Assembly (NCBI RefSeq): GCF_024494595.1
Contig: NZ_JANHDI010000002.1
Coordinates: forward strand, 124,001-188,000
Direction of reading: 5' to 3'
DNA: 64,000 nt
From: Halobellus rarus
Lineage (GTDB): Archaea; Halobacteriota; Halobacteria; Halobacteriales; Haloferacaceae
In this document: positions 2,518 through 26,319 of the stretch, piece after piece
Numbering within the stretch: the first letter of the stretch is position 1
Layout of the letters: each line of letters starts with the position of its first letter
The notes under the pieces: model-generated
Told to the model about the DNA's origin: nothing
Database searches by the model: none
What the model saw: only the letters and a program-made list of their open reading frames with translations
Program-made: the position numbers and the translations under genes

Positions 2518-3654
2518 CTATCCAGCCCTCTGATCGGGTTCCGATCCGAGCCACAGACGGACACGCTGGACGGCGACGCCCACGACGAACGCGGCCCCGA
2601 CGTTCGTCAGGACGCCCAGAATCCCGATACCGACGGTGAGCGGTAGATCGGCGGTGTCGAGGCCGGCGCGTCCGAGCTCGACGGCGATGACGGCGAGAAC
2701 GACACCGAGCATCGCGAGCGGGAACGCGGCCACGACGCCGACCGCCAGCACCGCCGCCAGCGCGTAGAGGACGCCGAGAATCAGGTTCGCGCCCGCCGTT
2801 CGCGCGCCGAAGGCGTACTTGCCGGCGACGCCGCCGCTGCCGTGGCACATCGGCATCGCCCCAAGGGGGACCGCGAGGAGGTTCATCGCGCCCATACTGG
2901 TCGCGAGTTCGTCGGGAGAGACGTCGGCGTCGAAGTAGTCCGAGAGGAGCAACGAGGTCGCGACTGCCGCGTTTCCGACGGTCATCGCCAACTGACCGAC
3001 GGTCGCGCCGAGGGACGCCGACGACGCGTCCGCCGCCGTCGGAAGCGTCACACCGATCGAGGGGAGTCGCGGATCGGGGAGCCCCGTCTGTGTAACCGCG
3101 ACGACGACGCCGAGTGCGACGACGAGGAGCGTACTCGCCCGGGGACGGCCGACGGCGACGCTGACTGCGACGGCCGCGAGTGCGAGAAGGGCGTAGCCGA
3201 CGCCGTCGAGACTCAACTGAATTCCCGTCTCCAGCAGCACGAGGCCGACCGCGAGTTGGACGCCGCGGATCACCGGCTGGCCGACGTGGCGTTCGATCCG
3301 GGCCAGTGCGCCAGTGGTACCGACGAGCAACAGAACGAGGCCGGCGAGAAGTCCCGCGACGACGAGTCCGCCGGTCGTCAGGGTACCCGCAATGACCAGC
3401 GCGGCGAGCGCCTTCATCGGCTCCACCGAGATCGGCAGTCCGTAGTGAACGCCCCAAACGATCTGAAACGCTGCGAACCCCAAGAGCAGATGCGCCAGCG
3501 ACAGCTCCGTGAGGGCGGCGACGGCGACGACGATCGGCAGGACTGTAACCGAATCCCCTAACGCTCCCGTGAGCTCGGTACGGGACAGAGAGATTCGATT
3601 CCCTGCGACGATACCGGTCGATGAGACCACAGTACAACACCATCTCGGAGCCAT
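2518..3654 (-). CDS. MOT1/SulP-like molybdate (sulfate) transporter
   Basis: A 378-residue membrane protein with about ten hydrophobic segments. It carries the hallmark of the MOT1 branch of the SulP family, FQIVWGVHYGLPISVEPMKA (about residues 72-91), and a second block with PMCHGSGGVAGKYAFGAR near residue 270. MOT1 proteins take up molybdate with high affinity, and bacterial and archaeal members are annotated putative sulfate/molybdate transporters. It is divergent from tupABC, a tungstate ABC importer with a ModE-type regulator, so molybdate or tungstate is favoured over sulfate. The first few codons are not family-like, and an in-frame GTG at 3630 could be the true start. Confidence 0.85.
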   Translation of the reverse strand: MAPRWCCTVVSSTGIVAGNRISLSRTELTGALGDSVTVLPIVVAVAALTELSLAHLLLGFAAFQIVWGVHYGLPISVEPMKALAALVIAGTLTTGGLVVAGLLAGLVLLLVGTTGALARIERHVGQPVIRGVQLAVGLVLLETGIQLSLDGVGYALLALAAVAVSVAVGRPRASTLLVVALGVVVAVTQTGLPDPRLPSIGVTLPTAADASSASLGATVGQLAMTVGNAAVATSLLLSDYFDADVSPDELATSMGAMNLLAVPLGAMPMCHGSGGVAGKYAFGARTAGANLILGVLYALAAVLAVGVVAAFPLAMLGVVLAVIAVELGRAGLDTADLPLTVGIGILGVLTNVGAAFVVGVAVQRVRLWLGSEPDQRAG

Positions 3655-3712
3655 TTAATCCCTTTGTGACGGCGGAACAGCGTCGAAGAGGTGGTTCCCT
3701 CGCCAGCCCTGA

Positions 3713-3730
3713 GTAACCATTTATAGTTAC
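3713..3730. promoter_or_regulatory. Inverted repeat between MOT1-like gene and tupA, candidate oxyanion-regulator operator
   Basis: GTAAC and GTTAC form inverted arms around an 8-bp AT-rich core that itself resembles a TATA box in both directions. It lies in the 127-bp space between the divergent permease gene and tupA. The HTH-TOBE regulator encoded at the end of the tup operon is the obvious candidate to bind it. Binding is inferred. Confidence 0.4.
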
Positions 3731-3781
3731 AGCCCGATCAGAACCTTTTTGCGACGTCCGACAGTCGTTGTATCTATATTG

Positions 3782-4819
3782 ATGCAACGACGGCAGTTCA
3801 TCCGGGCGGGGGGAGTCGGCGGCCTCGTCGCACTTGCCGGCTGTACGAGCCAGGCGGATCGTACCGGTTCGGAGACCGGCGGGACGGTCGGACAGACCGC
3901 GGACGGAACGTCGGCCCGCGCGTCCGGAACCGGACAGGTCGGCGACGGCGAACTCGTGCTGGCGACGACGACGAGCACCTACGATACGGGTCTGCTCGGC
4001 CACCTCAACCCGACGTTCGAGGAGAGCTTCGGGATCACGATGAAGACGATCCCGAAGGGGACCGGTGCGAGTCTCCGGACCGCCCGCGACGGCGACGCTG
4101 ACGTCATCCTCGTCCACGCGCGGACCGCCGAGGACGAGTTTATGCGGGACGGGTTCGGCGTCAACCGGCGCGACGTGATGTTCAACGACTTCGTCGTCGT
4201 CGGTCCCGAGGACGATCCGGCCGGAATCGACGGGATAGAGAGCGCGACCGGAGCGTTCCGGACGATTTCGGATACCGAATCGACGTTCGTCTCCCGCGGC
4301 GACGACTCGGGCACGAACAAGAAAGAACTCCTCGTCTGGGATGAGGCGGGCGTCGACCCGAGCGGCCAGTGGTACCGCGAGATCGGGAAGGGAATGGGCG
4401 ACACGCTCGTCCAGGCGAGCCAGACCGGCGCGTACACGCTCGCGGACCGCGGGACGTTTCTCTCGATGAGAGACGAAATCGATCTCGGGATTCGGGTCCA
4501 GGGACCGCTCGAAGGCGGTCCGGTCATCCTGAAGAACCCCTACGGCGTGATGGCGGTGAACCCGGCCACGTACGACGACGTGAACTACCAGGCCGCGATG
4601 GCGTACATCGGCTTTCTGACCGGCCCACGGGGCCAGACGATGATCGAGAACTACACCTCGAACGGATCGCAGTTGTTCTTCCCGAACGCGATCGCCGGAG
4701 AGCCGAACTTCGATCAGTACGTGCCGCAGGGATACACGGCCCGAGAAGCACAGCGTCTGTCGCGACCGGACAGAGAATACGTATCGTGGGTAGAGTCCGA
4801 AGTGCCTGACGACTACTGA
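3782..4819 (+). CDS. tupA: Tungstate ABC transporter substrate-binding lipoprotein TupA
   Basis: A 345-residue periplasmic-type binding protein. The chosen ATG gives a twin-arginine signal ([13 protein letters not shown]) and a lipobox LAGC near residue 21, so it is exported folded and lipid-anchored outside the membrane. An upstream in-frame ATG at 3749 would bury the signal. The mature part carries TupA signatures: [14 protein letters not shown], the oxyanion-binding TTTS loop, and later [26 protein letters not shown]. TupA binds tungstate very tightly for tungsten enzymes such as aldehyde ferredoxin oxidoreductases. It is the first gene of tupABC; tupB follows after 6 bp. Confidence 0.93.
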
Positions 4820-4825
4820 AAACAG

Positions 4826-5581
4826 ATGTCACCGACGGAACTCCTCGTCGCCACCGCAACGTCGTCGGCCGCGGCTCCGCCGGCCGCGCTGCAGTTTCAG
4901 CTCCCGGACGGCGGCTGGTCGTACGTCGTGAGCATCGTTCTCGTCTCTCTCCAAGTGAGCCTGACCGCGATCGCCCTGAGCACGCTCGTTAGCCTCCCTG
5001 TCGCGCTCTTCGTCGGCTTCACCGACTTCCCCGGCAAGCGAGTCGTGACGGCGATCATCAACACCGGGATGGGATTTCCGAGCGTGGTCGTCGGGCTCGC
5101 CGTGCTCATCGCGCTCTCGAACAGCGGTCCGCTCGGCTCGCTGGACCTCGCGTTCACCCCGGAGGCGATGATCGCCTCGCAGTTCGTCCTCGCGACGCCC
5201 GTCCTCACGAGCGTCAGCCTCTCGGCGGTCGAGGGAGTGGAAAAGCCCGTCCGGGACGCCGCGTTCGCGCTCGGCGGAACGAGAGTCGACGTCGCGCTCG
5301 TCGTGATCAAAGAGGCGAGATACGGGATCGTGACCGCGATCCTCGCGGGGTTCGGCCGCGCGATCAGCGAGGTCGGCTCGATCCTGATCGTCGGCGGCAA
5401 CATCGTCTTCAGCGACGGGCAGTCCTACACCAGAACGCTGACCACCGCCATTACGGTCGAGGCGCGGCAGGGGCGCTACGAGATCGGTCTCGTCCTCGGG
5501 GCCATTCTCCTCGCCCTCGTCTTCGCTGTCAACGGTCTCGGCTCGTGGATCAGAGGCAAAGGCCGGGGGGGATCGGGATGA
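4826..5581 (+). CDS. tupB: Tungstate ABC transporter permease TupB
   Basis: A 251-residue inner-membrane permease of the CysTW/ModB-like family with five to six hydrophobic segments. The EAA loop that contacts the ATPase is visible as [20 protein letters not shown] followed by [15 protein letters not shown] (about residues 146-190). The protein pairs with TupA and TupC for tungstate import. The start is 6 bp after the tupA stop and the end is about 35 bp before the tupC ATG, so the genes form one transcript. Family length is normal. Confidence 0.92.
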
Positions 5582-5615
5582 CCGTCGAGACGGGATCTGG
5601 GAGGTGTCGCGTCCG

Positions 5616-6452
5616 ATGACGTTGTCTGGTGACGGCCTCTCGATGGGGTTCGACGGGGAACTCGTCTTGGAGGGCGTCTCGATCGACGTCGACGCCGGCG
5701 AAGTGCTCACCGTCGTCGGTCCCTCGGGGACCGGCAAGACCACACTGCTGCGTCTCCTCGCCGGGTTCCACCCGCCGGACGCGGGAACGATCGCCTGGGA
5801 CGGGACCGACGTGTGGGCCCTCTCGGAATCCGAACGGCTGTCGATCCGTCGGGGGATCAGTATGGTGTTTCAGGAACCGAGCCTGTTCAACGCGACCGTC
5901 GCCCGGAACGTCACGTACGGGAGCCGCATCCGGCGCTCCTGGAGGGATCGGATCCGGGCCCAACTCGACGGACTCGTCGGCGACTCGTCGCTCTCGGAAG
6001 GCGCGCGAAGCGCGCTCGAAGTGGTCGGATTGACGGGGAAAGCCGACCAGAACGCGCTCTCGCTGTCCGGCGGGGAGGGCCAGCGCGTCGCGTTCGCCCG
6101 GGCGATGGCGGTCGACCCCTCGGTGCTGTTGCTCGACGAACCGACGTCGAACCTCGATCCGCGGAACACGGCCGTCTTGGAGGAGGCCGTCCTCCGTGCG
6201 CGAGACCGGGGGGTCGGCGTCGTGGTCGCGACGCACGATATGCATCAGGCCGAGCGGATTTCCGACCGCGTGGCCGTCCTCCTCGCCGGCGAACTCGTCG
6301 AGCGGGGACCGGCGGCGCAGATTTTCGAGGAGCCCGAGGACCGGCGAACGAAGCGCTTCGTCGACGGTGAATTGATGTACGACGTCGAGGAAACCGGAGA
6401 ACGGGACGAATCGAGCGAGAGTCACGACGCGTACTCGACAGCGCCGAGGTGA
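5616..6452 (+). CDS. tupC: Tungstate ABC transporter ATPase TupC
   Basis: A 278-residue ABC ATPase. Visible motifs are Walker A GPSGTGKTTLL (near residue 40), Q-loop VFQEPSLF, signature LSGGEGQRVAFARA, Walker B VLLLDEPT and switch His in VVATHDMHQAE. It powers TupB. The ATG at 5616 is used; a GTG 12 bases earlier (5604) is an alternative. There is a short acidic C-terminal tail and no TOBE domain; the TOBE repeats are on the separate regulator protein encoded next, 3 bp downstream. Confidence 0.92.
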   Translation: MTLSGDGLSMGFDGELVLEGVSIDVDAGEVLTVVGPSGTGKTTLLRLLAGFHPPDAGTIAWDGTDVWALSESERLSIRRGISMVFQEPSLFNATVARNVTYGSRIRRSWRDRIRAQLDGLVGDSSLSEGARSALEVVGLTGKADQNALSLSGGEGQRVAFARAMAVDPSVLLLDEPTSNLDPRNTAVLEEAVLRARDRGVGVVVATHDMHQAERISDRVAVLLAGELVERGPAAQIFEEPEDRRTKRFVDGELMYDVEETGERDESSESHDAYSTAPR

Positions 6453-6455
6453 CAG

Positions 6456-7304
6456 ATGGGATCGATACAACCGCAGGGGGAACCGTTCATCGAGGCCGAC
6501 GGCGTCCGCGTCGACGCGCGGGACGTCGAAGCGCTCCGCGGGGTCGACGAGTACGGCTCGATGTACCGGGCGGCCGAGGAACTCGGGCGTTCCTACGCCC
6601 GGATCCAGCGGCGCGTCTCCGAACTCGAGGAGACGTTCGGGCCGCTCTTGACCCGTCAGCGAGGCGGAACGGGAGGCGGCGGGAGCACGCTCACGGCGAA
6701 CGCCCGCGACCTCCTCGGGCGATTCGACCGTTTGCGCGCGGAGTTCTCGGGGCTGGCGCGGACCGAGGAGTCGGTGTTCTCGGGGACGCTCGTCGACCGC
6801 GACGGCCTCCTCGGTACCGTCGAAACGCCCGCAGGGACGATCAGAGCGATCGTCGCCGGGGCGGGTTCCGAGGGGGACGCTACTGCGGAGGCGGGAGACG
6901 ATACCGAATCTCCCGACGATACGAACGAGATCGTTCAGGTCAGCGTTCGCTCCGACGCCGTGGTGCTCACGACGCCCGAGGAAGCCCCCAAACCGTCGGA
7001 GACGAGCGTCCGAAACCGGTTCGCGGGAACCGTCGAGAGCGTCGAGTCGGAGGGCGGTATCGCGCGAGTGACCGTCGACGTCGGCGTCGACGCTCCGCTT
7101 CGGGCGCTCCTGACGGAAACCAGCCGCGAGACGCTCGCTCTCGAGCCGGGAGAGACGGTCGTCGCATCGTTCAAGGCGACCGCGGCACGGGGAGTGCTCG
7201 CTCCCGAACACGGCGGCTCCGTTGGATCCGAGTCCGCCGAGGTCGACACGACGGAGAAGGGCACGAGTGAGGATACGACGGGAAACGACACGAGTGAGGA
7301 GTGA
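6456..7304 (+). CDS. ModE-type regulator: LysR-like HTH plus two TOBE/Mop domains
   Basis: A 282-residue protein. Residues about 18-95 form the ModE N-terminal winged helix (DEYGSMYRAAEELGRSYARIQRRVSELE is the HTH region). Two Mop/TOBE-type oxyanion-binding repeats follow, roughly residues 108-175 and 187-245 (NRFAGTVESVESEGGIARVTVDV, in the second). The first repeat is interrupted by an acidic linker rich in Asp/Glu, and the C-terminus is a low-complexity Thr/Glu/Asp tail. ModE proteins bind molybdate or tungstate and then control uptake genes. It is the last gene of the tup operon, 3 bp after tupC, so it likely regulates its own operon and perhaps the divergent MOT1-like gene. Confidence 0.88.
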   Translation: MGSIQPQGEPFIEADGVRVDARDVEALRGVDEYGSMYRAAEELGRSYARIQRRVSELEETFGPLLTRQRGGTGGGGSTLTANARDLLGRFDRLRAEFSGLARTEESVFSGTLVDRDGLLGTVETPAGTIRAIVAGAGSEGDATAEAGDDTESPDDTNEIVQVSVRSDAVVLTTPEEAPKPSETSVRNRFAGTVESVESEGGIARVTVDVGVDAPLRALLTETSRETLALEPGETVVASFKATAARGVLAPEHGGSVGSESAEVDTTEKGTSEDTTGNDTSEE

Positions 7305-7307
7305 GCG

Positions 7308-8036
7308 CTATCGGGCCTCGACCGGCTCGATCAGGTCCGGCGCGTCGTTCGCGGGGCTGTTCACGCGCGTCGAAACCGGGTACGTCCGCCAGTCGTCGCC
7401 GGCGTGCGGTTCGAGCAGGTCCGCGACGTCCGCTCCGTCACCGTGGAGCCAGGTGGACTCCTCGTCGGGGTCGAGGACGACCGCCATCCGGTGGTGGAGG
7501 TCAGAGACGACGTCGTTCGGTTCGGTGGTGACGATGGCGAACGACTCGACGACGGTCGATTCGCCCTCACTTTCGTCGCCGCTCTCGTCGCCGACGCCAC
7601 CGCCGAAGTCACCGAGCCCCGTCTGCGTGTGCGTCGGCTCCCAGCGCTCCCAGAGGCCGGCCATCGCGAAGGGGCGATCGTCGTCGAACGCGACCCGGTA
7701 CGGCCGTTTCGTCTCCCCGTCTCGGACCCACTCGTAGAACCCGTCGGCGGGGACCAGACACCGCCGTCGCTCGTAGGCCTCGCGAAAGCTCGCCCTCTCG
7801 TCGACCGTCTCCGCGCGGGCGTTGATGCGGTCGTTCCCCGCCGACTCGTCGTCGGCCCACGACGGGATCAAGCCCCACTTGAGCCGACGGAACGTGTCGG
7901 GGTCGTCGTTCGCGATCACCGGCAGCGACTGCCCCGGCGCGCAGTTGTACCGCGGCTCCGGCGGCTCCGCGAAGGTGGCGTCGAACCGGGACTCCAGTTC
8001 GTCGGCGGGGGTGAAGAGCGTGTAACGGCCGCACAT
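7308..8036 (-). CDS. SRAP (YedK/HMCES-type) abasic-site protein
   Basis: A 242-residue protein beginning MCGRY, so Cys2 becomes the N-terminal catalytic nucleophile that crosslinks to abasic sites in single-stranded DNA. The other family residues are visible: Asn72 (INARAET), Glu102 (DGFYEW) and His182 (HHRM). The start was set at this Met because the family always begins with MCGR; a longer open frame extends upstream but is not coding. It shields abasic sites during replication. Residues 141-160 form a Gly/Asp/Glu insertion absent from bacterial YedK. It is convergent with the tup operon, with stops 4 bp apart. Confidence 0.95.
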   Translation of the reverse strand: MCGRYTLFTPADELESRFDATFAEPPEPRYNCAPGQSLPVIANDDPDTFRRLKWGLIPSWADDESAGNDRINARAETVDERASFREAYERRRCLVPADGFYEWVRDGETKRPYRVAFDDDRPFAMAGLWERWEPTHTQTGLGDFGGGVGDESGDESEGESTVVESFAIVTTEPNDVVSDLHHRMAVVLDPDEESTWLHGDGADVADLLEPHAGDDWRTYPVSTRVNSPANDAPDLIEPVEAR

Positions 8037-8156
8037 ACTCCCGCGGTGGTGCCGGAGACGCAAAACGACCCCGGCCGCAGGGGCCGGTAGGAGTCGGGGC
8101 CTCGGCGGCGGCTTCGCCTCGAAGGGTTTAGGCCCGCTCCGCTCTCCTACTCGGAT

Positions 8157-8942
8157 ATGCGCATCGAGAACAGTTTCGTCCCGGCCGAGGGCGTCGGCGA
8201 GGGCCGCGAGCGCTCGCTGTGGGAGGCGGGCATCCTCACCTGGGAGGAGTTCGACCCCGGACGCGCGCCGCTGGGGCCGAAGACCGGCGAGCGGGTGGAA
8301 TCGTTCGTCGCGGAGGCGCTGGAACGCCTCGACGACGGCGACACCCGGTACTTCGGCGAGCGGTTCCCTTCGGGTGAGACCTGGCGCTTCTACGAGAACT
8401 TCCGGGACGAGGCCCTCTTTTTCGACATCGAGACGACCGGCCTCGACTCGGATCGGGAGAACGTCACGACGGTCTCGTTCACGCGGGACGGCGAGACGAC
8501 GACGCTGATCCGCGGCGAGGACCTGACCGACGAGGCGCTCCGCGAACAGTTCCGCGACGCGCCGCTCGTCGTCTCGTTCAACGGCAAGCAGTTCGACGTC
8601 CCGTTCCTCGAGGACAACTTCGACATCTCCGTCGACGCGCCGCACCTCGACCTGATGTACCCGTGCCGGCGGACCGATCTGACGGGCGGACTGAAGTCGA
8701 TCGAGAAGCAGGTCGGGATCGATCGGGACCGCCCGGACCTCTCGGGACGGGACGCCGTGCGACTCTGGTACCGCTACGCCCGCGACGGCGACGAGGACGC
8801 CCTCGACACGCTGGTCTCGTACAACCGCGACGACACCGAGAACTTGCAGAACCTCGCCGACGTCGTCGCCCGACGGCTTCACGAGGACTCGTTGGGATCC
8901 GTCGCCGGCGCGTCTCCGGGAATCCCGGATCCGCTTTCGTAG
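8157..8942 (+). CDS. Ribonuclease H-like exonuclease domain protein (YprB-like DEDDy)
   Basis: A 261-residue protein with an RNase H-fold 3'-5' exonuclease domain after an approximately 85-residue N-terminal region. Metal ligands are visible: Asp90/Glu92 in FFDIETTGL, Asp147 in NGKQFDVPFLE, and the Y222-x3-D226 motif in YNRDDTENL, which makes it DEDDy type. It resembles the YprB/RNase_H_2 group; the substrate (DNA or RNA) is not known. It is divergent from the SRAP gene with about 120 bp between them, so a shared role in DNA repair is possible but only inferred from position. Confidence 0.85.
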   Translation: MRIENSFVPAEGVGEGRERSLWEAGILTWEEFDPGRAPLGPKTGERVESFVAEALERLDDGDTRYFGERFPSGETWRFYENFRDEALFFDIETTGLDSDRENVTTVSFTRDGETTTLIRGEDLTDEALREQFRDAPLVVSFNGKQFDVPFLEDNFDISVDAPHLDLMYPCRRTDLTGGLKSIEKQVGIDRDRPDLSGRDAVRLWYRYARDGDEDALDTLVSYNRDDTENLQNLADVVARRLHEDSLGSVAGASPGIPDPLS

Positions 8943-9018
8943 CCGGCGTTACTCCGCGTCTGCCGCTACTTTTGGTGAACCTAAAAACACAAGTACCCCC
9001 CGGCGGAAACGACAGGTG

Positions 9019-9702
9019 ATGACCGAGTACACCTTCGACGACCTCGCGGTCGTGATGGGCACCTACAACGAGGCGGCCGCCATCGAGACGGTGCTGTCCG
9101 ACATCGACGACGCGACCGACGGCCGCGCGGAGGTCGTCTGCGTCGACAGTTCGAACGATCGAACGCCGGAGATCGCCCGCGAACACGGAGCGACCGTGAT
9201 CGAACAGCCGCCGATGGGCTACGGCTACGCCGTTCGGGAGGCCGTTCTCGCGCCCGACCGCCCGGTCGTCGTCACGACCGACTGCGACGACACGTACCCG
9301 ATGGAGAGGCTCCCGCAGTTCCTCGAACTGATCAACGAGGGCTACGACGTCGTCTCCGGCGACCGGCTCTACCACGGTGCCGAGGCGATGCCGACGCTGA
9401 ACCGACTGGGCAACGCCGCCTTCGCGCTGCTGGCGTCCGGACTGATGGGCGAGCGCGTCCACGACACGACGACCGGAATGCGGGCGTACCGGCGGGAACT
9501 CCTCCACGATATCGAGTGGACCGAGAACACGGGGCTGTCCGCGGAACTCCTGATCCGGCCGCTGATGCGCGGCTACGAGATCCGCGAGGAGCCGATCCCC
9601 TACCGGGAGCGCGCCGGCGAGACCAAACTCGATCCGTTCGAGGGCGGAGCGGCGATCGCGAAGTCGATCGTGAAGGTGTGTCTCGAAGAGCGGTTCGGGT
9701 AG
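9019..9702 (+). CDS. Dolichyl-phosphate hexose synthase-like family 2 glycosyltransferase
   Basis: A 227-residue GT-A fold glycosyltransferase. It shows the N-terminal nucleotide-binding motif VVMGTYNEAAAIETVL, the DxD-type metal site TTDCDDTYPME and a C-terminal block IPYRERAGETKL shared with DPM1-like synthases. Haloarchaeal members transfer a hexose from a nucleotide sugar to dolichyl phosphate on the cytoplasmic face for N-glycosylation (AglJ-like enzymes). There are no membrane helices. The ATG at 9019 is preferred over the GTG one codon earlier. It stands apart from other agl genes here; aglM is 20 kb away. Confidence 0.85.
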   Translation: MTEYTFDDLAVVMGTYNEAAAIETVLSDIDDATDGRAEVVCVDSSNDRTPEIAREHGATVIEQPPMGYGYAVREAVLAPDRPVVVTTDCDDTYPMERLPQFLELINEGYDVVSGDRLYHGAEAMPTLNRLGNAAFALLASGLMGERVHDTTTGMRAYRRELLHDIEWTENTGLSAELLIRPLMRGYEIREEPIPYRERAGETKLDPFEGGAAIAKSIVKVCLEERFG

Positions 9703-9754
9703 GCCGTGTAGCGTGCGGTTCAGGGAGTCGAGCGAGGGAGGTCGCTCCCGGCCG

Positions 9755-9952
9755 CTAGCGGAGGATGTCCGCGATCCGACGCGGCTCGCCGCTCAGCGAT
9801 GGGTCCTCCTCGACGATTTTCAGCACCTCGTGGTCGGTGACGTCCGGGTAGGACTTCTCGGTGGCCTCCTCGATGAGCGACTTCTCGAGTCTGAATTCGG
9901 TTCCCTCGTAGACGACGTCGACGCCGTCCTCGTCGAACGAAAGCGCAGTCAT
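9755..9952 (-). CDS. DUF5800 family small protein
   Basis: A 65-residue acidic protein (MTALSFDEDGVDVVYEGTEF at the start, DHEVLKIVEEDPSL later). The pattern corresponds to the haloarchaeal DUF5800 family, of unknown function. No transmembrane segment or metal-binding cysteines are seen. It is convergent with the glycosyltransferase gene. There is no operon partner. Confidence 0.75.
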   Translation of the reverse strand: MTALSFDEDGVDVVYEGTEFRLEKSLIEEATEKSYPDVTDHEVLKIVEEDPSLSGEPRRIADILR

Positions 9953-10426
9953 ACGCAGCCGTAATCGATCACGGAGTAAAAACGCATCAGTATCGGCTTT
10001 CGATCTGAAGAGACGTAGACCGGCGGGCGAACGCCCCGAAACTTCGACTCATCCACCGGCGAATCGAACGTCGGTATCTCCTACGAGCGAATCAAACGGG
10101 CGTATCAACAGTTTCGCCCCACGGTAGAATTGCCGATAGCCGTGACTACCGGAACGACGGATCGAGTGGTTAGAAACCGTCACCTCCGGGTCCGAAACGT
10201 GTGCGAGCCGTTACTGCGACCGGCTCCTCGCCGGCGACGACCGCGTCAAGGTCCAGGTATCCCGACCGTCGGGCGTCACGGACCTCGGAAATTCCTGTCG
10301 TGAGGAACAGGGGGAATTATCCGGGGGATAGACGGTCTACGTACCCGAATCAATGAGACTCTCGCCCCTTCACTCCGGCCGAGGAACAGACGAACGCGAC
10401 CGCGGAAGCGAGGATCCCGACCGACG
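9953..10426. other. Intergenic region before the TRAP operon
   Basis: 474 bp without a supportable gene. Near its right end an inverted pair, AATTCC (10290-10295) and GGAATT (10313-10318), overlaps the best TATA-like sequence (AATTATCC, to about 10322), which would give a 5' untranslated leader of roughly 80 bases for the TRAP operon. Nothing else stands out. Confidence 0.35.
10290..10322 (+). promoter_or_regulatory. Candidate promoter/operator of the TRAP operon
   Basis: The inverted arms AATTCC and GGAATT are 17 bp apart, the second overlapping a TATA-like AATTATCC. This arrangement would let a regulator occlude TBP binding. It is inferred only. Confidence 0.3.
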
Positions 10427-11692
10427 ATGACGTCCGAACGCGACTCGAACGCCGACGCGTCGACAGCCAGGAGCCGGCGGGCGGTGCTCGGGCTGACGGC
10501 CGGTACGGCCCTCGGCGGCCTGACGGGCTGTCTCGGCGGCGGCGCGTCCGCCTCCGAGGGCGGCGACGGCGGCACGACGACGATCCGGTGGGCTGGCACG
10601 CAGAACCCGGACACGTCGTGCTGGGACTACGAGGACGCGTCCGACGAGTGCGGGCTGGTGTATCCCGTCTTCGAGCTCGAACGACGTCTCGAAGAGCGGT
10701 CGTCGGGGCTCGAGCTGTCGTTGATCGACAGCAAGGAGCTGTGCAGCGAGCAGTCCTGTATGACGAAGATGGATTCGGAGGTCATCCACCTCGGCAGCAG
10801 TTCCGTGGCGAACTCGGCGAAGATCTGGCCGGAGAACGAGATCTGGAGCGTCCCGTACACGATCCCGGCGCACAGTCGGGCGTCGATCGGGTACTCGTTC
10901 ACGCATCCGACCGTCTGGGAGGAGTACTGGGTGCCCTTCGGACGCAAGTACAACGCGATTCCGATCGGGTTCGATCCGCCGGGGTACCGAGCCCACTTCG
11001 TCGGCGTCGGGAACGACCCGGACGAGGCGTTGACGTCGCCGGAGGACTTCGCGGGGCTGAAGATCAGAACCACCCAGAGCGACGTGATATCCGTCGCCTT
11101 CGACGAGCTCGGGATGAACCCGACGACGGTCTCGTTCGCGGACACGCTTCAGGGGATGCAATCGGGCGTGGTCGACGGGATGGAGATCATCCCGCAGTAC
11201 GCCGTCTCCGCGCAGATCACGGACGTGACCGCGCAGGCGACGCTGACGCAGTGGGCGCCCGGGATCGATCCGATCTGGTGTCGCGTGGACTTCCTGAAGA
11301 GCCTCTCGGAGGCGGAGCGCGAGACGTTCGCGTCGGTGACGGCCGAACTCGCCGAGGAGAGCATCCGCCGCTCGGACGACGTCTACGAGACGTTCCAGGG
11401 ACTGAGCCCGGAGGCACCCGTTGAGGGGTCGAACTACTACACCCAGGGCCCCGACGGGGAGCCGGTCCGCGTGAACTGGCTGGACGACGACCAGCTCGCG
11501 GCGTGGCGAGAGCCGATCGATCCGGCGTCCAACCGGGACCTCTACCGGGACGCGATCGACAGGGTCCACGAGGAGTTCACCGACGGGTTCTACGACCACC
11601 TGTACGAGGTCGCCCGCGAACCGGGCGTTCCGAGCCGGTCCGCGGACTTCTCGCTCGACGCGTGGTGGGACGACTACCTGGAGCGGATGTGA
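10427..11692 (+). CDS. TRAP transporter substrate-binding protein (DctP-type), Cys-rich lipoprotein
   Basis: A 421-residue secreted solute receptor. The N-terminus has a twin-arginine signal (SRRAVLGLTAGTALGG) and lipobox LTGC, so it is exported folded and anchored outside. The mature part is a DctP/TAXI-like fold: the substrate-clamp region is FAGLKIRTTQSDVISVAFDELGMNP and the hallmark SGVVDGMEI follows near residue 245. Unusually it has five further cysteines after the lipobox (TSCW, DECG, ELCSEQSCM, IWCR), rare in salt-exposed haloarchaeal proteins and suggestive of disulfides. Substrate is unknown. It is the first gene of a TRAP operon; the small permease overlaps its stop. Confidence 0.9.
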   Translation: MTSERDSNADASTARSRRAVLGLTAGTALGGLTGCLGGGASASEGGDGGTTTIRWAGTQNPDTSCWDYEDASDECGLVYPVFELERRLEERSSGLELSLIDSKELCSEQSCMTKMDSEVIHLGSSSVANSAKIWPENEIWSVPYTIPAHSRASIGYSFTHPTVWEEYWVPFGRKYNAIPIGFDPPGYRAHFVGVGNDPDEALTSPEDFAGLKIRTTQSDVISVAFDELGMNPTTVSFADTLQGMQSGVVDGMEIIPQYAVSAQITDVTAQATLTQWAPGIDPIWCRVDFLKSLSEAERETFASVTAELAEESIRRSDDVYETFQGLSPEAPVEGSNYYTQGPDGEPVRVNWLDDDQLAAWREPIDPASNRDLYRDAIDRVHEEFTDGFYDHLYEVAREPGVPSRSADFSLDAWWDDYLERM

Positions 11693-12282
11693 TCTCGTCG
11701 GTGCCGATGGTTCCGAAACTCCTGCGAACGGCGCGTGTCGCCCTGGATCCGGATCGAGAGCCGGAGACGCGGCTCGGACGGATCGAGCGTGACCTCGAGC
11801 TCTACGTCGGGGGGTCACTCCTCGTGATATACGGGCTGCTCATCGGTCTCTCCGTGATCCAGCGGACGCTGACCGGAGAGCAGGCCCTCTGGGTCCAAGA
11901 GATCACGATCGGGATGTTCGTCTGGGTCGCGTGGCTCTCTGTGGCCTACGTGATCCGCAACGAGGACCACCTGCGGTTCACGCTCGTCCTCTCGCGGCTC
12001 TCGAATCGCGGTCGCTACCTCCTCTACTGGGTCGAATGGGCGCTCTGGGTCGGCTTCGCCGGGACCGTGTTCGTCTACTCCGTCCCGGTGCTCGGCGACT
12101 TTATCGCACGGCAGGCGACGATCACCGGGACGTCGATCCCGGACGCGGTCACGTATCTGGCAATCACGGTCGGCTTCGGGCTCGTGCTCCTGCGGGTCGC
12201 ACAGCAGGCGGTCTCGGTGACGCTGGCGTTCCGCCGCGGGGACGACGTCACGCACTCCGAGGGGGAGGTGGTCGCGGAATGA
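11689..12282 (+). CDS. TRAP transporter small permease (DctQ-type)
   Basis: About 197 residues with four hydrophobic segments, the topology of DctQ subunits (LELYVGGSLLVIYGLLIGLSV, then QALWVQEITIGMFVWVAWL). It bridges the receptor and large permease. The start chosen is the GTG at 11689, which overlaps the receptor stop and has a GGAG about 5 bases upstream; an ATG at 11707 is the alternative. Its stop overlaps the large-permease ATG (ATGA), so the three genes are translationally coupled. Confidence 0.85.
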   Translation: MISSVPMVPKLLRTARVALDPDREPETRLGRIERDLELYVGGSLLVIYGLLIGLSVIQRTLTGEQALWVQEITIGMFVWVAWLSVAYVIRNEDHLRFTLVLSRLSNRGRYLLYWVEWALWVGFAGTVFVYSVPVLGDFIARQATITGTSIPDAVTYLAITVGFGLVLLRVAQQAVSVTLAFRRGDDVTHSEGEVVAE

Positions 12283-13592
12283 CGGGCGCGACCGTTCTCG
12301 CGAGCGCGCTCGGCTTCGCCCCCGGGACGGCGCTCGCGTTGCTCACGCTCGCCGTCGGCGTCCTGTTCGTCCTCGGAGTTCCGATACTACTCGTCTTCTC
12401 GACGTGGGTGCTCGGCTTCGCCGTGCTCTTCCCCGCGTTCGGACTGCAGAACACGTCCGTCGCGGCGTACTATCAGCTCTGGACGTTCCCGCTGACGGCG
12501 GTCCCGCTCTTCATCCTCGTGGGAGCGCTCATCAACCAGCTGCAGATCGCCCGCGACATCATCGGTCTCTCGCGGTCGCTGGCGGGCTGGCTGCCGGGGA
12601 GCGCGGCGAACACCGCCCTCCTCACCTCCGGCGTGTTCTCCGCGATCACGGGATCGAACGCCGCGACGACGGCCTCCGTCGGGGAGGCGTTCACCGACGA
12701 GCTCCGCGAGGAGGGCTACGATCCGGTGTTCAGCGCGGCGACGATCGCTGCCGGGGGAACGCTCGGGATCGTCATCCCGCCGAGCGTCCTCTTCATCCTC
12801 TACGGGGTGACGTTCAACCTCCCGGTCTCAGATCTGTTCGTCGCCGGCACGCTCCCCGGGCTGTTGATGTTGATCGGACTGATCACGACCGCGACGGTCA
12901 TCTCCTATCGCAACGACTACGGGACCGACGAGTACGCGTTCGACGTCCGGGAGGTCCTCCGGTCGGTCCTCAAAGCACGGAACTCCCTCCTGGCCATCGT
13001 CGTCCTCCTGGGCGGCATCTTCACCGGCGTGTTCACCCCGTCGGAGTCGGCCTCAATCGCGATCCTGTTCGTCGTCACCGCCGAGTTCCTGTCGGGGAAC
13101 ATCCGCGGGACGGCGTTCCTCGTCGAATCGGTCCGGCTGACGATCTACCTCGTGGGCATCATCATCCCCGTGTTGGTCACGTCGATCATGATCCAGCAGA
13201 GCCTGTCGTTCCTCGATCTCCAGGATCTCCTCTCGAACGCCATCCTGGCGCTCGACGCCCCGATTCTGATCGGGTCGGTGCTGATCGTCGTGATGCTCCT
13301 GAGCGGCTCGGTCCTCGCCTCGATTCCGAACATGATCTTGGTCGCGCCGCTCTTGGCCCCCGCCGCGTTCGCGCTGGGGATCTCGCCGCTGATGTGGGGC
13401 GTGATCTTCATGATCAGCGACGCGATCGGGTTCATCACGCCGCCCTACGGGCTGAACCTCTACATCATCAGCAGCATCACCGACATCGACTATATGCGGA
13501 TCGCGTGGGGCGCACTCCCGTACTTCTTCGTGTTGACCTCGATACTCGTCCTGTTCTTCGTCTTCCCCGAACTGAACGTCCTGGCAGCCTAA
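12279..13592 (+). CDS. TRAP transporter large permease (DctM-type)
   Basis: A 437-residue membrane protein with about a dozen hydrophobic segments. DctM family motifs are visible: LWTFPLTAVPLFILVGALIN, the discontinuous-helix region TGSNAATTASVGE (about residues 125-137), and IPPSVLFILYGV; a matching second half contains FITPPYGLNLYII. It forms the Na+-coupled channel of the TRAP importer. The ATG was chosen because it overlaps the DctQ stop by ATGA; a longer frame upstream is inside dctQ. A 129-bp gap separates it from the DsrE-like gene on the same strand. Confidence 0.93.
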   Translation: MTGATVLASALGFAPGTALALLTLAVGVLFVLGVPILLVFSTWVLGFAVLFPAFGLQNTSVAAYYQLWTFPLTAVPLFILVGALINQLQIARDIIGLSRSLAGWLPGSAANTALLTSGVFSAITGSNAATTASVGEAFTDELREEGYDPVFSAATIAAGGTLGIVIPPSVLFILYGVTFNLPVSDLFVAGTLPGLLMLIGLITTATVISYRNDYGTDEYAFDVREVLRSVLKARNSLLAIVVLLGGIFTGVFTPSESASIAILFVVTAEFLSGNIRGTAFLVESVRLTIYLVGIIIPVLVTSIMIQQSLSFLDLQDLLSNAILALDAPILIGSVLIVVMLLSGSVLASIPNMILVAPLLAPAAFALGISPLMWGVIFMISDAIGFITPPYGLNLYIISSITDIDYMRIAWGALPYFFVLTSILVLFFVFPELNVLAA

Positions 13593-13721
13593 CCACCACA
13601 GACCGATGATCACGACACTCGCGACTCACGAGAGACGACCGGCTCGAAACGAGAGACGATCGGTACAGCAAGAGAGGCGACCGACCCGGCACCAGACCCG
13701 ACCGACCCGGAGGTGCGAGAG

Positions 13722-14078
13722 ATGTTTCTCCTGATAACGGACGGTCCCGACGATTCGGCGGCCCCGCTTCCCTTCGTCGCCGCGAAGGGGGCGATGGAGG
13801 ACGGGGACGAGGTCTCGATCGTAACGATGGCCGACGGCGTCTCGCTGCTGCGGCGGGACGTCGATCTCCACGCGCTGGAAGCGTCGGGACTGCCGACCGT
13901 CGCGGCGGCGGTCGAGGCGCTCCGGGACCGCGGAGCGCTCGCGGACGCCGTCGCCTTGCGACCCTGTTGTGAATCCCGCGGTATCGACGAAGCTGACCTC
14001 CGCGAGTGGGCCTCGATGGACGGGCCGAGCGCGATTTCTAGACTCGCCGGGGAACACGAGACGACGCTCTCGTTCTGA
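13722..14078 (+). CDS. DsrE family protein downstream of the TRAP genes
   Basis: A 118-residue protein with a DsrE/DsrF-like Rossmann-type fold (MFLLITDGPDDSAAPLPFVA, then VSIVTMADGVSLLRR). Members handle sulfane sulfur or transfer persulfides via a conserved cysteine; here a Cys-Cys pair lies in RPCCESRGID (about residues 88-97), close to the position of catalytic cysteines in the family. The ATG is preferred over an in-frame GTG at 13713 because a strong GGAGGTG lies 6 bases before it. It follows the TRAP permease on the same strand, which suggests sulfur metabolism linked to the imported solute. Confidence 0.7.
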   Translation: MFLLITDGPDDSAAPLPFVAAKGAMEDGDEVSIVTMADGVSLLRRDVDLHALEASGLPTVAAAVEALRDRGALADAVALRPCCESRGIDEADLREWASMDGPSAISRLAGEHETTLSF

Positions 14079-14185: not shown

Positions 14186-14208
14186 GGCCCCACGTGTTGC
14201 TCGGGAGT

Positions 14209-15060
14209 GTGGCACTCGGTCAGGACCGACTGGATACTTTAGAAATCCCCGACGGGACGACCGCCGAGGAGCACGACCTCGTGACCGACGGGGACATCGT
14301 CGTCGGCGGGCAGAGCACCGTCGAGTTCGGCGTCCGCGGGCGGAACGTCCTCGCCGGCGAGCGCGTCACCTTCGGCGGCGACATCGAGGCCGAGGGGGAC
14401 TGCCGCCTCGACGTCTGGTGCGACGTCGCCGGCAACGTCCTCGTGGGCGAGGACGCCTACCTCGGCGAGCGCGTCCACATCGGCGGTCGGCTGATGGTCT
14501 CCGGCGATCTGGACATCGGCGACGACGTCGACATCGAGGAGGGCTTCGAGGCCAACGGCTGGATCGTCATCCGGAACCCGGTGCCGACGCTCGTCTTCTA
14601 CTTCGTCGTCCTCTCGCAACTCCTCCACATCGGCGAGAACGAGAGCGCCGAGGAACTCGCGAACGCGCTCTCCGGCGAGAGCGAGGACGCCCCGCTCGTG
14701 ATCCCGCGCGGGTCGACCGTCTCCGACGACGCCTGGCAGGCCTCGACGCCCGCGACGATCGGCGACGAGTGTCGACTTCACGGCAACGTCCGCGCCGAGA
14801 CGATCACCGTCGGCCGGGACAACAACATCTTCGGGAGCCTCCGCGCCCGCGGCGACATCGAGGTCGGCGAGGGGACGCGCGTCCACGGCGACGTGACGAC
14901 CCGCGACGGCACCGTCACCATCGCCGACGGGGCGGAGGTCCTCGGCGACGTCTCCTGTGCGGACCTCGAACTCCACGACGACGCCGACGTCGAGGGGACG
15001 ATCCGCGCCTCTGGCGATATGCGACTCGTCCGTTCGAAGGCGAGTCGAGACGCGGAGTGA
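14209..15060 (+). CDS. Bactofilin-like polymer-forming protein with a central hydrophobic segment
   Basis: About 283 residues made of two runs of short beta-helix turns rich in Gly/Asp/Val (for example VEFGVRGRNVLAGERVTFGG and later RLHGNVRAETITVGRDNNIF), the pattern of bactofilins and 'polymer-forming cytoskeletal' proteins. Between the two runs is a hydrophobic stretch VPTLVFYFVVLSQLLHIG that could anchor it in the membrane. Bactofilin homologues in haloarchaea (halofilins) influence cell shape. The start is set at the GTG 27 bp after a TATA-like box; the earlier GTG at 14194 would lie too close to that box. It stands alone. Confidence 0.75.
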   Translation: MALGQDRLDTLEIPDGTTAEEHDLVTDGDIVVGGQSTVEFGVRGRNVLAGERVTFGGDIEAEGDCRLDVWCDVAGNVLVGEDAYLGERVHIGGRLMVSGDLDIGDDVDIEEGFEANGWIVIRNPVPTLVFYFVVLSQLLHIGENESAEELANALSGESEDAPLVIPRGSTVSDDAWQASTPATIGDECRLHGNVRAETITVGRDNNIFGSLRARGDIEVGEGTRVHGDVTTRDGTVTIADGAEVLGDVSCADLELHDDADVEGTIRASGDMRLVRSKASRDAE

Positions 15061-23576: not shown

Positions 23577-24368
23577 TCACTCCCCGATGAGCGAGCGGAC
23601 CCGATCGACGTACTCGCCGAAGGCCGGGTCCGTCCGATCCCGCGGCCGGTCGATGTCGACCGTGACGACCTCGCGGACGCGCCCCGGATCGGCGGCCATC
23701 ACGACGACGCGGTCGGAGAGCTTCACCGCCTCCTCGACGTCGTGGGTGACGAAGAGCACCGTCTTTCCCGTCTCCGCCCAGATCCGCAGCAGTTCCTCGT
23801 GGAGCATATCCCGCGTCTGGGCGTCGACGCTCCCGAACGGCTCGTCCGCGAGGAGGATCTCCGGATCGACCGCCAGCGCGCGGGCGATGCCGACGCGCTG
23901 TTTCATCCCGCCGGAGAGCTCCTTCGGGTAGGCGTCGGCGAACTCCCCGAGCCCGACTAGGTCGAGCATCTCGCCGACACGTCGGCTCCGCTCGGGTTCT
24001 TTGACGCCCTGTTCTTCGAGACCGAAGGCGACGTTGTCGCGGACGGTGCGCCAGGGGAACAGCCCGTACTCCTGAAAGACCATCCCGCGGTCCGTGCCCG
24101 GCCCCGTGACCGGCTCGCCGTCGAGTCGGATCTCGCCGCCGGTCGGGACCTCCAGCCCGGCGATCGTGCGGAAGAGCGTCGTCTTCCCGCAGCCGGAGGG
24201 GCCGACCAGGCAGACGAACTCCCCGTCCGACACGGAGAAGTTGACGTCCGAGAGCGCCTCGACCCGCTGGCGCTCGGACTCGTAGACCTTGCTCACGCCG
24301 TCGACGACGACCTTGGAGTTCCGGTCGAGATTTGACCCGTCCCCGGGGGAGTCGCTCAGTCCCGCCAC
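23577..24368 (-). CDS. ABC transporter ATPase, nitrate/sulfonate/taurine (SsuB/TauB-like)
   Basis: A 263-residue ABC ATPase. Walker A GPSGCGKTTLFRTIAGLEVP, Q-loop MVFQEYGLFPWRTV, signature LSGGMKQRVGIARAL, Walker B ILLADEPFG and switch His in FVTHDVEEA are clear and are of the NrtD/SsuB/TauB type. It drives the permease encoded just upstream. The GTG start at 24368 overlaps the permease stop by 13 bp; a longer upstream frame lies within the permease gene and is a shadow. Ordered receptor, permease, ATPase from 26319 down. Confidence 0.9.
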   Translation of the reverse strand: MAGLSDSPGDGSNLDRNSKVVVDGVSKVYESERQRVEALSDVNFSVSDGEFVCLVGPSGCGKTTLFRTIAGLEVPTGGEIRLDGEPVTGPGTDRGMVFQEYGLFPWRTVRDNVAFGLEEQGVKEPERSRRVGEMLDLVGLGEFADAYPKELSGGMKQRVGIARALAVDPEILLADEPFGSVDAQTRDMLHEELLRIWAETGKTVLFVTHDVEEAVKLSDRVVVMAADPGRVREVVTVDIDRPRDRTDPAFGEYVDRVRSLIGE

Positions 24369-25249
24369 GCCAGTGCCCTCCGTTCGACCCGCCGGAACGC
24401 CCCGTCGCTCACGAGGAAGACGAGGCTGATGACGGCCATGTACGCCACGCTCACGTCGGTCGCGAGGTTCTGTGCCGCGTTGATGATCTGGAAGCCGACG
24501 CCGGGCGCGCCGAACAGTTCGGCGGCCACGACGATCATCCAACACTGACCGATGCTCGTCCGGACCCCGGTCGCGATCGACGGCGTCGCCGCCGGGAGGA
24601 TCACCTTGCGGATCATCGTCAGATCGTCGTCGACGCCGAGCGTCTCCGCGACTTCACGGAGGTGCGTCGAGACGCCCTCGACGCCCGCGTACGCGTTGTA
24701 GAAGTTGATCCAGAACGCGCCGATCCCGACGATGAACGCCGCGCCGCCGTGGCCGATGCCGATCCAGACGATGGCGAAGACGATCCACGCCAGCGGCGGG
24801 ATCGGGCGGAGAAAGCGCGTGACCGGCGTGAGCGCGTCGTCGAGGCGACCGCTCCAGCCCATCGCGACGCCCAGCGAGATGCCGAGAACGCTTCCGACCG
24901 CCAGGCCCGGCAGGTAGTGCAACAGGCTCTGGAGCAGGTTCGCGACGAGGCGCGTGGCCGGGATCGAAACCTCCGCGAACGGGACCGTGAACGTCGTCGG
25001 TGCGGTGAGTTCGACGACGAACGCGGTCGCGACCTCGACCGGAGACGGGAGCAGATACGTCCGTCCGACCGCCATCGCGGCGGCCTGCCAGACCGCGAGG
25101 AAGATCCCCGTCCCGGCCGCGCCGTACGCGAGACCGGCCGTGTCGAGGTCCGAGAGCGATCCGATCGACGAATCGCCGGGGCTCTCGTGGGTGGATCCGG
25201 GGTCCGTCGTCGCGCCCGTCTCGGATTCGGTCCCGGTCTCGACGCTCAT
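24356..25249 (-). CDS. ABC transporter permease (SsuC/TauC-like)
   Basis: A 297-residue permease. After an acidic 30-residue head there are about six membrane segments, and the EAA-type coupling loop is visible as LREVAETLGVDDDLTMIRKVILPAATPSI (quoted in part here as its positions, about residues 196-224). The C-terminal segment SIGQCWMIVVAAELFGAPGV is typical of the BPD_transp_1 family in sulfonate/nitrate systems. It overlaps the receptor stop by 4 bp and the ATPase start by 13 bp, so the three genes are one coupled operon. Confidence 0.9.
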   Translation of the reverse strand: MSVETGTESETGATTDPGSTHESPGDSSIGSLSDLDTAGLAYGAAGTGIFLAVWQAAAMAVGRTYLLPSPVEVATAFVVELTAPTTFTVPFAEVSIPATRLVANLLQSLLHYLPGLAVGSVLGISLGVAMGWSGRLDDALTPVTRFLRPIPPLAWIVFAIVWIGIGHGGAAFIVGIGAFWINFYNAYAGVEGVSTHLREVAETLGVDDDLTMIRKVILPAATPSIATGVRTSIGQCWMIVVAAELFGAPGVGFQIINAAQNLATDVSVAYMAVISLVFLVSDGAFRRVERRALAWRD

Positions 25250-26319
25250 AGGGAGTCGTACACCCCGAAGTCGAACAGATCGTCGTTCGAGAGCACCTCG
25301 TCGATCCGTCCCGCGTTCGCCGCGTACTCCGAGAAGATCTGCGCGCCGTCCTCGATCTTGTGCGGGTCGGTGATGAAGTCCGAGGCTGGCGAGTCCATCG
25401 CCCGCCGGGCCGTTTCGACCGGCAGCGACGACTCGCCGATGACGGTGCTGGCGTGTTGGGCGGCCCCGTCGGGGTTGTCGTTGGCGAACGTCGTCGCGCG
25501 CTGGTGCTGCTCGACGAAGGCCGCCGCCTGCTCGGGGTTGTCCTCGCGGAGTCGGTCGTGCATCAGCGCGACAGCCGCGGGCTGACCGGGCATAAAGTCG
25601 CCCGCCCAGGCGATCGGCTGGTAGGGGGCACCGCGCATCTCGATGACCGTCGGCACCGGCTCCATAATCGACGTGCCATCGATCTCACCGGCCAGGAGGG
25701 CCTGCCGAACCGGCCCTGCACCGCCGAGCGAGGTGATGTTCACGTCGGATTCGGGGTCGACGCCGACGACCTCCGACAGCCAGTAGCGAAGGAGGATGTC
25801 CGGCACCGACCCGGGCGGGAACGTCCCGAAGGTGAACTTCCGACCCTGTTCCTCCTCGAACCGGTCGAAGGCGTCCGCGCCCGATTCGGCGTCCGCCCAG
25901 ACCGCCGCGAAGTCGTCGTGCGCCAGGACCTGCATCGCGTTCTGGATGTTCGCGGCGGTGATCTTCGCGGGGATGTCCTTGTCCATCACGATCATCGCGG
26001 GAACGATGCCGAACAGCATCACGTCGAAGTCGCCCGTCGCGGAGGCCTGGACGATACTCGGGCCGTCTGAGAACACCTCTCCGGAAACCGTCGCCGAAAG
26101 CTCGTCGAAGTACCCCTCCTCCTGCATAATGAAGTACTGCATATCCGGGTAGATGGGCATATACGCGACGCGGATCTCGTCGAGGCCGCCGTTCGACCCG
26201 CCGGTCCCGCCGAGGCATCCGGCGGCGCCCCCGAGTCCGGCTGCCGAAGTCGCGGCGGTCGCCTGAAGGAACCGCCGTCGCGAAATGCCCGATCGGTCGT
26301 GTGTCGAGTCTCTCTTCAT
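25246..26319 (-). CDS. ABC transporter substrate-binding lipoprotein (SsuA/TauA/NrtA-like)
   Basis: A 357-residue receptor. The signal has SRRRFLQATAATSAAGLGG and lipobox GAAGC, a Tat-lipoprotein. The domain starts IRVAYMPIYPDMQYFIMQEE, the NMT1/SsuA-type fold, and includes the hinge region LLAGEIDGTSIMEPVP. The solute may be an alkanesulfonate, taurine, nitrate or a thiamine precursor; sequence does not decide. A TATA-like TAAATAC lies about 27 bp before the ATG, so it is the leaderless first gene of the operon. Confidence 0.88.
   Translation of the reverse strand: MKRDSTHDRSGISRRRFLQATAATSAAGLGGAAGCLGGTGGSNGGLDEIRVAYMPIYPDMQYFIMQEEGYFDELSATVSGEVFSDGPSIVQASATGDFDVMLFGIVPAMIVMDKDIPAKITAANIQNAMQVLAHDDFAAVWADAESGADAFDRFEEEQGRKFTFGTFPPGSVPDILLRYWLSEVVGVDPESDVNITSLGGAGPVRQALLAGEIDGTSIMEPVPTVIEMRGAPYQPIAWAGDFMPGQPAAVALMHDRLREDNPEQAAAFVEQHQRATTFANDNPDGAAQHASTVIGESSLPVETARRAMDSPASDFITDPHKIEDGAQIFSEYAANAGRIDEVLSNDDLFDFGVYDSL

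Follow-up and report, generated by a model that had tools for sequence, protein, structure and literature searches.

What does a DsrE gene do at the end of an importer operon? This question is raised by a 64,000-nucleotide stretch of the haloarchaeon Halobellus rarus (contig NZ_JANHDI010000002.1, positions 124,001 to 188,000; hereafter the window), which comes from a genome of 3.66 Mb. Here, the genes for a tripartite ATP-independent periplasmic (TRAP) importer, comprising the receptor DctP, the small permease DctQ and the large permease DctM, are followed by a gene for a DsrE/DsrF-family protein with two adjacent cysteines. After comparing this locus with its relatives, we consider it a new TRAP variant in which the importer is joined by its own, derived DsrE protein. 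The association of the TRAP genes with the DsrE gene is real, and an organosulfur anion is the favoured but unproven solute.

The four genes and their relatives

The features on which the argument depends are as follows.

10275-10300, + strand: upstream cis-element GTCAYNNNNNTCGGAARNNNNTGWCG, aligned in 7/7 cassettes, with one perfect match per genome
10427-11692, + strand: TRAP receptor DctP (PF03480, E 3.7e-24)
11707-12282, + strand: TRAP small permease DctQ (PF04290, E 6.5e-18)
12279-13592, + strand: TRAP large permease DctM (PF06808, E 2.1e-70); its start overlaps the DctQ stop (ATGA)
13709-13713, + strand: GGAGG, resembling a ribosome-binding site, of the DsrE gene; GGAGG also occurs in the Halobellus rufus intergenic stretch
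13722-14078, + strand: DsrE/DsrF-family protein of 118 amino acids (PF02635, E 1.4e-7)

The curated cut-offs of PF03480, PF04290 and PF06808 are all exceeded and the three genes are contiguous, which makes the locus a complete DctPQM system. The DsrE protein scores 32.1 bits against a PF02635 cut-off of 22.7 and covers positions 3-115 of the 116 in the profile. The initial annotation, which read the operon as a TRAP importer ending in a DsrE-type gene with a Cys-Cys pair, was therefore borne out, with all four genes lying where it had placed them and passing the Pfam cut-offs. We preferred ATG 13722 to the listed GTG 13713 as the DsrE start because GGAGG sits 8 bases 5′ of that ATG.

Relatives of the receptor and of DsrE were sought in 148 genomes of the family and then in an exhaustive family search of 170 genomes, and DsrE was also sought in 391 genomes of the class; neighbourhoods rest on our own gene calls, with many neighbours named by eye. 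The receptor subfamily was present in 12 of the 148 genomes and DsrE in 8. The exhaustive search brought the receptor count to 13 of 170, its only addition being one more distant receptor, in G469, without DsrE. Seven receptors are at least 68% identical to the one studied here, and the seven strong DsrE matches come from exactly these seven genomes; the eighth match, in G041, is weak, and no TRAP genes were found in its vicinity. In all seven close receptor relatives, which belong to four genera, the order P-Q-M-DsrE is kept on one strand. Among the carriers, Halobellus rufus CBA1103 is the closest relative of the host; Halorubrum aidingense JCM 13560 is another carrier. The cassette flanks are mostly dissimilar across the seven genomes, being alike within the two Halobellus and partly within the two g24 genomes. 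We inspected 19 loci that encode more distant receptors, including two on plasmids, and saw a DsrE of the cassette type at none; the searched genomes (148 of the family, 391 of the class) likewise contain none outside the cassettes. The DsrE-linked receptors form one clade (100% support in the Shimodaira-Hasegawa-like approximate likelihood-ratio test, in a tree with six of the seven), and the nearest receptor relative without DsrE belongs to G068, a Halobellus.

Additionally, DsrE has diverged together with the importer: over 21 pairs, its pairwise identity tracks that of P, Q and M with r of 0.955, 0.949 and 0.963, respectively. Compared with Halobellus rufus, the ratio of nonsynonymous to synonymous change in the DsrE gene is 0.119/0.437 = 0.27. 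The neighbourhood check that had been named beforehand was thus run, and the idea that DsrE is kept beside the TRAP genes survived it in 7/7 cassettes. A real partnership between importer and DsrE is likely.

A probable control element of its own

A conserved block before the receptor (about 10274-10322) aligns in all seven cassettes, even though most of the flanks differ. Its 26-base core, GTCAYNNNNNTCGGAARNNNNTGWCG, occurs once in the window. Every one of the seven cassette genomes has a single perfect match to it, always upstream of the receptor, whereas the reversed pattern used as a control has 0 matches in them. When one mismatch was allowed, a single stray extra site appeared, in G145. 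The element is probably the promoter or operator of the cassette. A wider regulon was considered and rejected, no second perfect site being present in any of the seven genomes. Because there is a single perfect match per genome, the cassette has its own element with no sign of a wider regulon. Given this element and the invariant P-Q-M-DsrE order, the four genes and the upstream sequence form an autonomous cassette, either transferred among several haloarchaeal genera or retained by them.

The spacers between DctM and DsrE (13593-13721 in the window) vary. GGAGG precedes DsrE in Halobellus, and a TATA-like ATATATGT lies about 28 bases before the DsrE ATG in four of the seven cassettes, none of them from Halobellus, which suggests a second promoter ahead of DsrE in those four.

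Receptor cysteines and arginines

The receptor carries the lipobox L-T-G-C35 preceded by the twin-arginine stretch SRRAVLG, a lipoprotein signal of the twin-arginine translocation type, and has five cysteines past the lipobox (C65, C75, C106, C111 and C285). The initial annotation took this number to be unusual. It is so beside the lipobox proteins detected elsewhere in the window, four in number and all lacking cysteines past the lipobox, but the trait belongs to the receptor subfamily and not to the link with DsrE. C106 and C111 are found in all 24 aligned receptors, 17 of which lack DsrE; C65 and C75 occur only together, each of the 24 having the pair or neither, and the DsrE-linked receptor of Haloferacaceae XH8 has lost both. 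We therefore rejected the argument that a cysteine-rich receptor means a sulfur ligand, since C106 and C111 are common to all. These cysteines are probably mostly structural, forming predicted disulfides between C65 and C75, whose joint presence or loss resembles that of a disulfide, and probably between C106 and C111. C285 is present in 7/7 DsrE-linked receptors and 0/17 others; we infer that it is a lineage-specific free cysteine of the cassette receptors, and its gain may be one event because these receptors are one clade. R188 and R214 are invariant in an alignment of 23 receptors, as expected of TRAP receptors, and we take them to be the arginines typical of carboxylate binding.

A derived DsrE protein

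The DsrE Cys-Cys pair is C82-C83 (numbered from ATG 13722) and is invariant in all seven cassettes. The cassette protein matches the family model of the DsrE/TusD sulfur carriers over its full length and differs from them in having Leu79 in place of the usual active-site cysteine, with Cys82-Cys83 following 3-4 residues on. In the alignment, cysteine stands at the Leu79 position in three unlinked relatives and in the other DsrE of the host genome. By eye, the C-x6-R motif equates Leu79 with Cys78 of TusD; MAFFT and hhalign gave no reliable TusD alignment. The unlinked haloarchaeal relatives (G401, Haladaptatus halobius and G041), which were not seen beside TRAP genes, are 30-42% identical over the whole length and share C82 and R86 with the cassette proteins. 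They carry C-x-P-C; the cassette proteins have lost its first cysteine, kept its second (C82) and added C83. Searches of PDB sequences with DsrE found no relative.

The initial annotation had argued that DsrE proteins move sulfane sulfur, an argument now weakened: since Leu79 occupies the usual active-site cysteine position, the cassette protein does not match the classic relay role. The reactive site may instead lie, in changed form, at the Cys-Cys pair. Protein starts and shared clusters in the neighbourhoods of the seven cassettes, though not a family scan of each gene there, revealed no gene for TusA, Hdr, Dsr or a rhodanese. Elsewhere in the host genome (L069, G000:C24, about 1244-2477) there is a TusA-like, DsrE and DsrE2-like set, which is probably a general sulfur relay.

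Comparison with known importers

The cassette shares with DctPQM transporters all three components, the P-Q-M order, separate DctQ and DctM proteins and a lipoprotein receptor, and it differs from them in its conserved fourth gene and in the receptor cysteine pairs. Its receptor lies under the TIGR00787 dctP cut-off (68.4 vs 175.05 bits) and its DctM under the TIGR00786 dctM cut-off (253.9 vs 268.45 bits). The permease DctQM is ion-driven in characterised systems. The receptors of the sulfonate TRAP systems, namely the isethionate DctPQM and the system for 2,3-dihydroxypropane-1-sulfonate (DHPS), presumably HpsKLM, belong to the same family as the cassette receptor (profile E-values of 1.9e-20 for isethionate and 1.9e-19 for DHPS). 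However, the ectoine receptor and others match as well or better, and sulfonate-degrading enzymes do not adjoin the cassette. No TRAP-DsrE pairing is described in the titles or abstract openings of the literature searched, most subscription journals being outside it, which agrees with the earlier claim that no TRAP system of this composition has been reported.

What does the cassette import?

Overall, we propose a putative mechanism for the cassette. The lipid-anchored receptor would capture a small anion from outside the cell, with the invariant R188 and R214 as likely contacts, and would pass it to the DctQM permease. In the cytoplasm, DsrE would act as a dedicated partner on the imported solute or on its first product. 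The favoured but unproven solute is an organosulfur anion (a sulfonate or sulfo-carboxylate), whose sulfur DsrE may handle at the relocated vicinal Cys82-Cys83 that replaces the standard DsrE cysteine. The organosulfur anion stays our leading mechanism, since it accounts for DsrE. Taken as a whole (autonomous cassette, anion uptake, DsrE partner, organosulfur solute favoured but unproven), this is our best explanation and is put forward tentatively. The fuller claim of a mobile archaeal organosulfur uptake cassette, in which the TRAP importer has a private control element and its own sulfur-handling DsrE with the site moved to Cys-Cys, is more doubtful.

The relatives' loci offer clues to the solute. 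Sulfite- or sulfate-type genes occur at 4 of the 19 relatives' loci: a YeiH-type "putative sulfate exporter" in the locus of G068, YeiH near the receptor of G290, TauE/SafE after the TRAP genes on a plasmid of Halorientalis marina, and a sulfite-oxidase-type enzyme near the TRAP genes in G297. The placement of YeiH in the G068 locus is more telling than the mere presence of YeiH. Also on the side of sulfur are the DsrE family itself, the invariant C82 and C83, the solved isethionate and DHPS receptors among the profile matches, and a distant haloarchaeal TRAP locus with YeiH, SuyA/SuyB-like and HisD-like genes (L107, described below). The initial annotation had proposed a sulfur solute such as thiosulfate or an organosulfur acid. 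Thiosulfate gained no specific support; the organosulfur acid is indirectly backed by these few loci and countered by sugar-acid genes elsewhere.

Several results weigh against an organosulfur solute and a sulfur-handling DsrE, among them the Leu79 substitution described above, which is found in 7/7 cassette proteins. Sugar-acid-type enzymes also occur at 4 of the 19 loci (G037, G083, G033 and, by eye, G469); these genes, of the enolase superfamily and the Zn-alcohol dehydrogenase type, equal the sulfite- and sulfate-type genes in number, and the remaining loci have no consistent partner gene. The seven neighbourhoods have no conserved enzyme or exporter gene in common that accompanies the cassette, and no sulfonate-catabolic gene was seen adjoining it. 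YeiH was rejected as a clue shared by the carriers: 29 of the 35 genomes searched have it, in roughly a single copy each, and its distribution is not tied to the cassette, so its presence alone is uninformative. A tblastn search of six stretches surrounding YeiH in five cassette genomes found no Suy-like or HpsN-like genes. The best solved receptor by profile is 2vpn (E 2.3e-23), which we take to be the ectoine receptor TeaA; because it ranks first, the matches to solved structures do not point towards sulfonates. The structure models, each built from a seven-sequence alignment, were too low in predicted local distance difference test score for use (29.0 for the receptor and 45.8 for DsrE).

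The alternative that survives best is an ordinary carboxylate importer, for a hydroxy or sugar acid, in which DsrE performs no sulfur transfer and instead binds the solute or senses thiol or redox state through Cys-Cys. The invariant R188 and R214, in their presumed carboxylate role, would fit it, as would the loss of the canonical DsrE cysteine. Related receptors lie beside an enolase-superfamily dehydratase, alcohol and aldehyde dehydrogenases and IclR regulators, and the other TRAP system of the host genome lies, by eye, among glycerate- or hydroxy-acid-type genes. However, a carboxylate importer leaves unexplained why DsrE is present in 7/7 cassettes and at 0/19 relatives' loci, and why two adjacent cysteines are invariant in a cysteine-poor protein lineage. 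We give this alternative a substantial chance, somewhat short of even. As to the solute itself, we hold an organosulfur anion and an ordinary carboxylate to be about equally likely because the relatives' loci point both ways.

It is improbable that DsrE is a passenger, in the cassette by history and serving an unrelated cell function. The TATA-like ATATATGT just before DsrE in four of the seven cassettes speaks for it, since DsrE may then also be transcribed alone. However, the same order and strand recur in all seven, mostly in different surroundings, DsrE co-diverges with the importer (r about 0.95-0.96) under purifying selection, and no DsrE of this type occurs elsewhere in the family and class genomes searched.

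To our knowledge, DctP-type receptors of known ligand bind organic anions, which speaks against import of inorganic sulfur. In Metallosphaera cuprina, the protein DsrE3A accepts thiosulfate from tetrathionate (PMC4175335). Despite this precedent and the TusA-DsrE-DsrE2-like set elsewhere in the host genome, it is very improbable that thiosulfate or tetrathionate is imported and its sulfur carried by DsrE to a relay, as the position of the working cysteine of DsrE and TusD is not a cysteine in the cassette DsrE, and beside the cassette no gene for TusA, Hdr or a rhodanese could be recognised.

Neighbouring genes and other transport loci

The 5′ neighbours of the cassette are a dolichyl-phosphate hexose transferase gene (9016-9702) and an opposite-strand DUF5800 gene. 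On the 3′ side lies an archaeal bactofilin-domain (PF04519) protein gene (14194-15060, + strand), a neighbour also in Halobellus rufus. All three are outside the four-gene unit. No relative was found among viral contigs, and an Rfam scan gave just two chance-level matches, both far under the gathering scores.

About 10 kb from the cassette, an ATP-binding cassette (ABC) importer (23577-26319, − strand) comprises an SsuA/NMT1-type binding protein, a TauC/SaoP-like permease and a SaoA/TauB-like ATPase, all below curated cut-offs; it is possibly an importer of sulfonates or related compounds. At 3782-7304 (+ strand), there are a TupA/TupB-like (tungstate) ABC transporter, an ATPase and a separate gene fusing a ModE/LysR-type helix-turn-helix to TOBE/Mop domains, probably for tungstate or molybdate uptake and its regulation.

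Among the distant TRAP loci, a module of Amidohydro_2, a Rieske ferredoxin and a conserved protein of about 107 amino acids with no Pfam match accompanies TRAP genes (L029 5734-8893, L058 8878-10700 and L073 1606-3398) in three lineages of haloarchaea that do not have sister receptors. This module, seen at the loci of G068, G297 and Halorientalis marina, was rejected as a missing pathway, being absent from the cassette loci, and Amidohydro_2 was rejected as a shared carrier gene, its nearest relatives not following the cassette. 4-Sulfomuconolactone hydrolase is also an amidohydrolase, a link that was weighed and not used. Another distant haloarchaeal TRAP locus (L107, G373:C2:425000-441000, 3501-10947) has YeiH, SAF-domain, galactarate/altronate-dehydratase-like and histidinol-dehydrogenase-like genes; we take the dehydratase-like genes to be SuyA/SuyB-like and the histidinol-dehydrogenase-like gene to be HpsN-like, and the locus looks like a DHPS/sulfolactate degradation operon.

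Implications

A TRAP system is commonly understood to consist of P, Q and M alone. A dedicated DsrE partner in the cytoplasm, if true, would couple solute uptake directly to the chemistry of sulfur or thiols and would offer a way into the little-studied use of organosulfur compounds in brines. As the cassette is self-contained and has named genomes among its carriers, the question is open to simple deletion and binding experiments.

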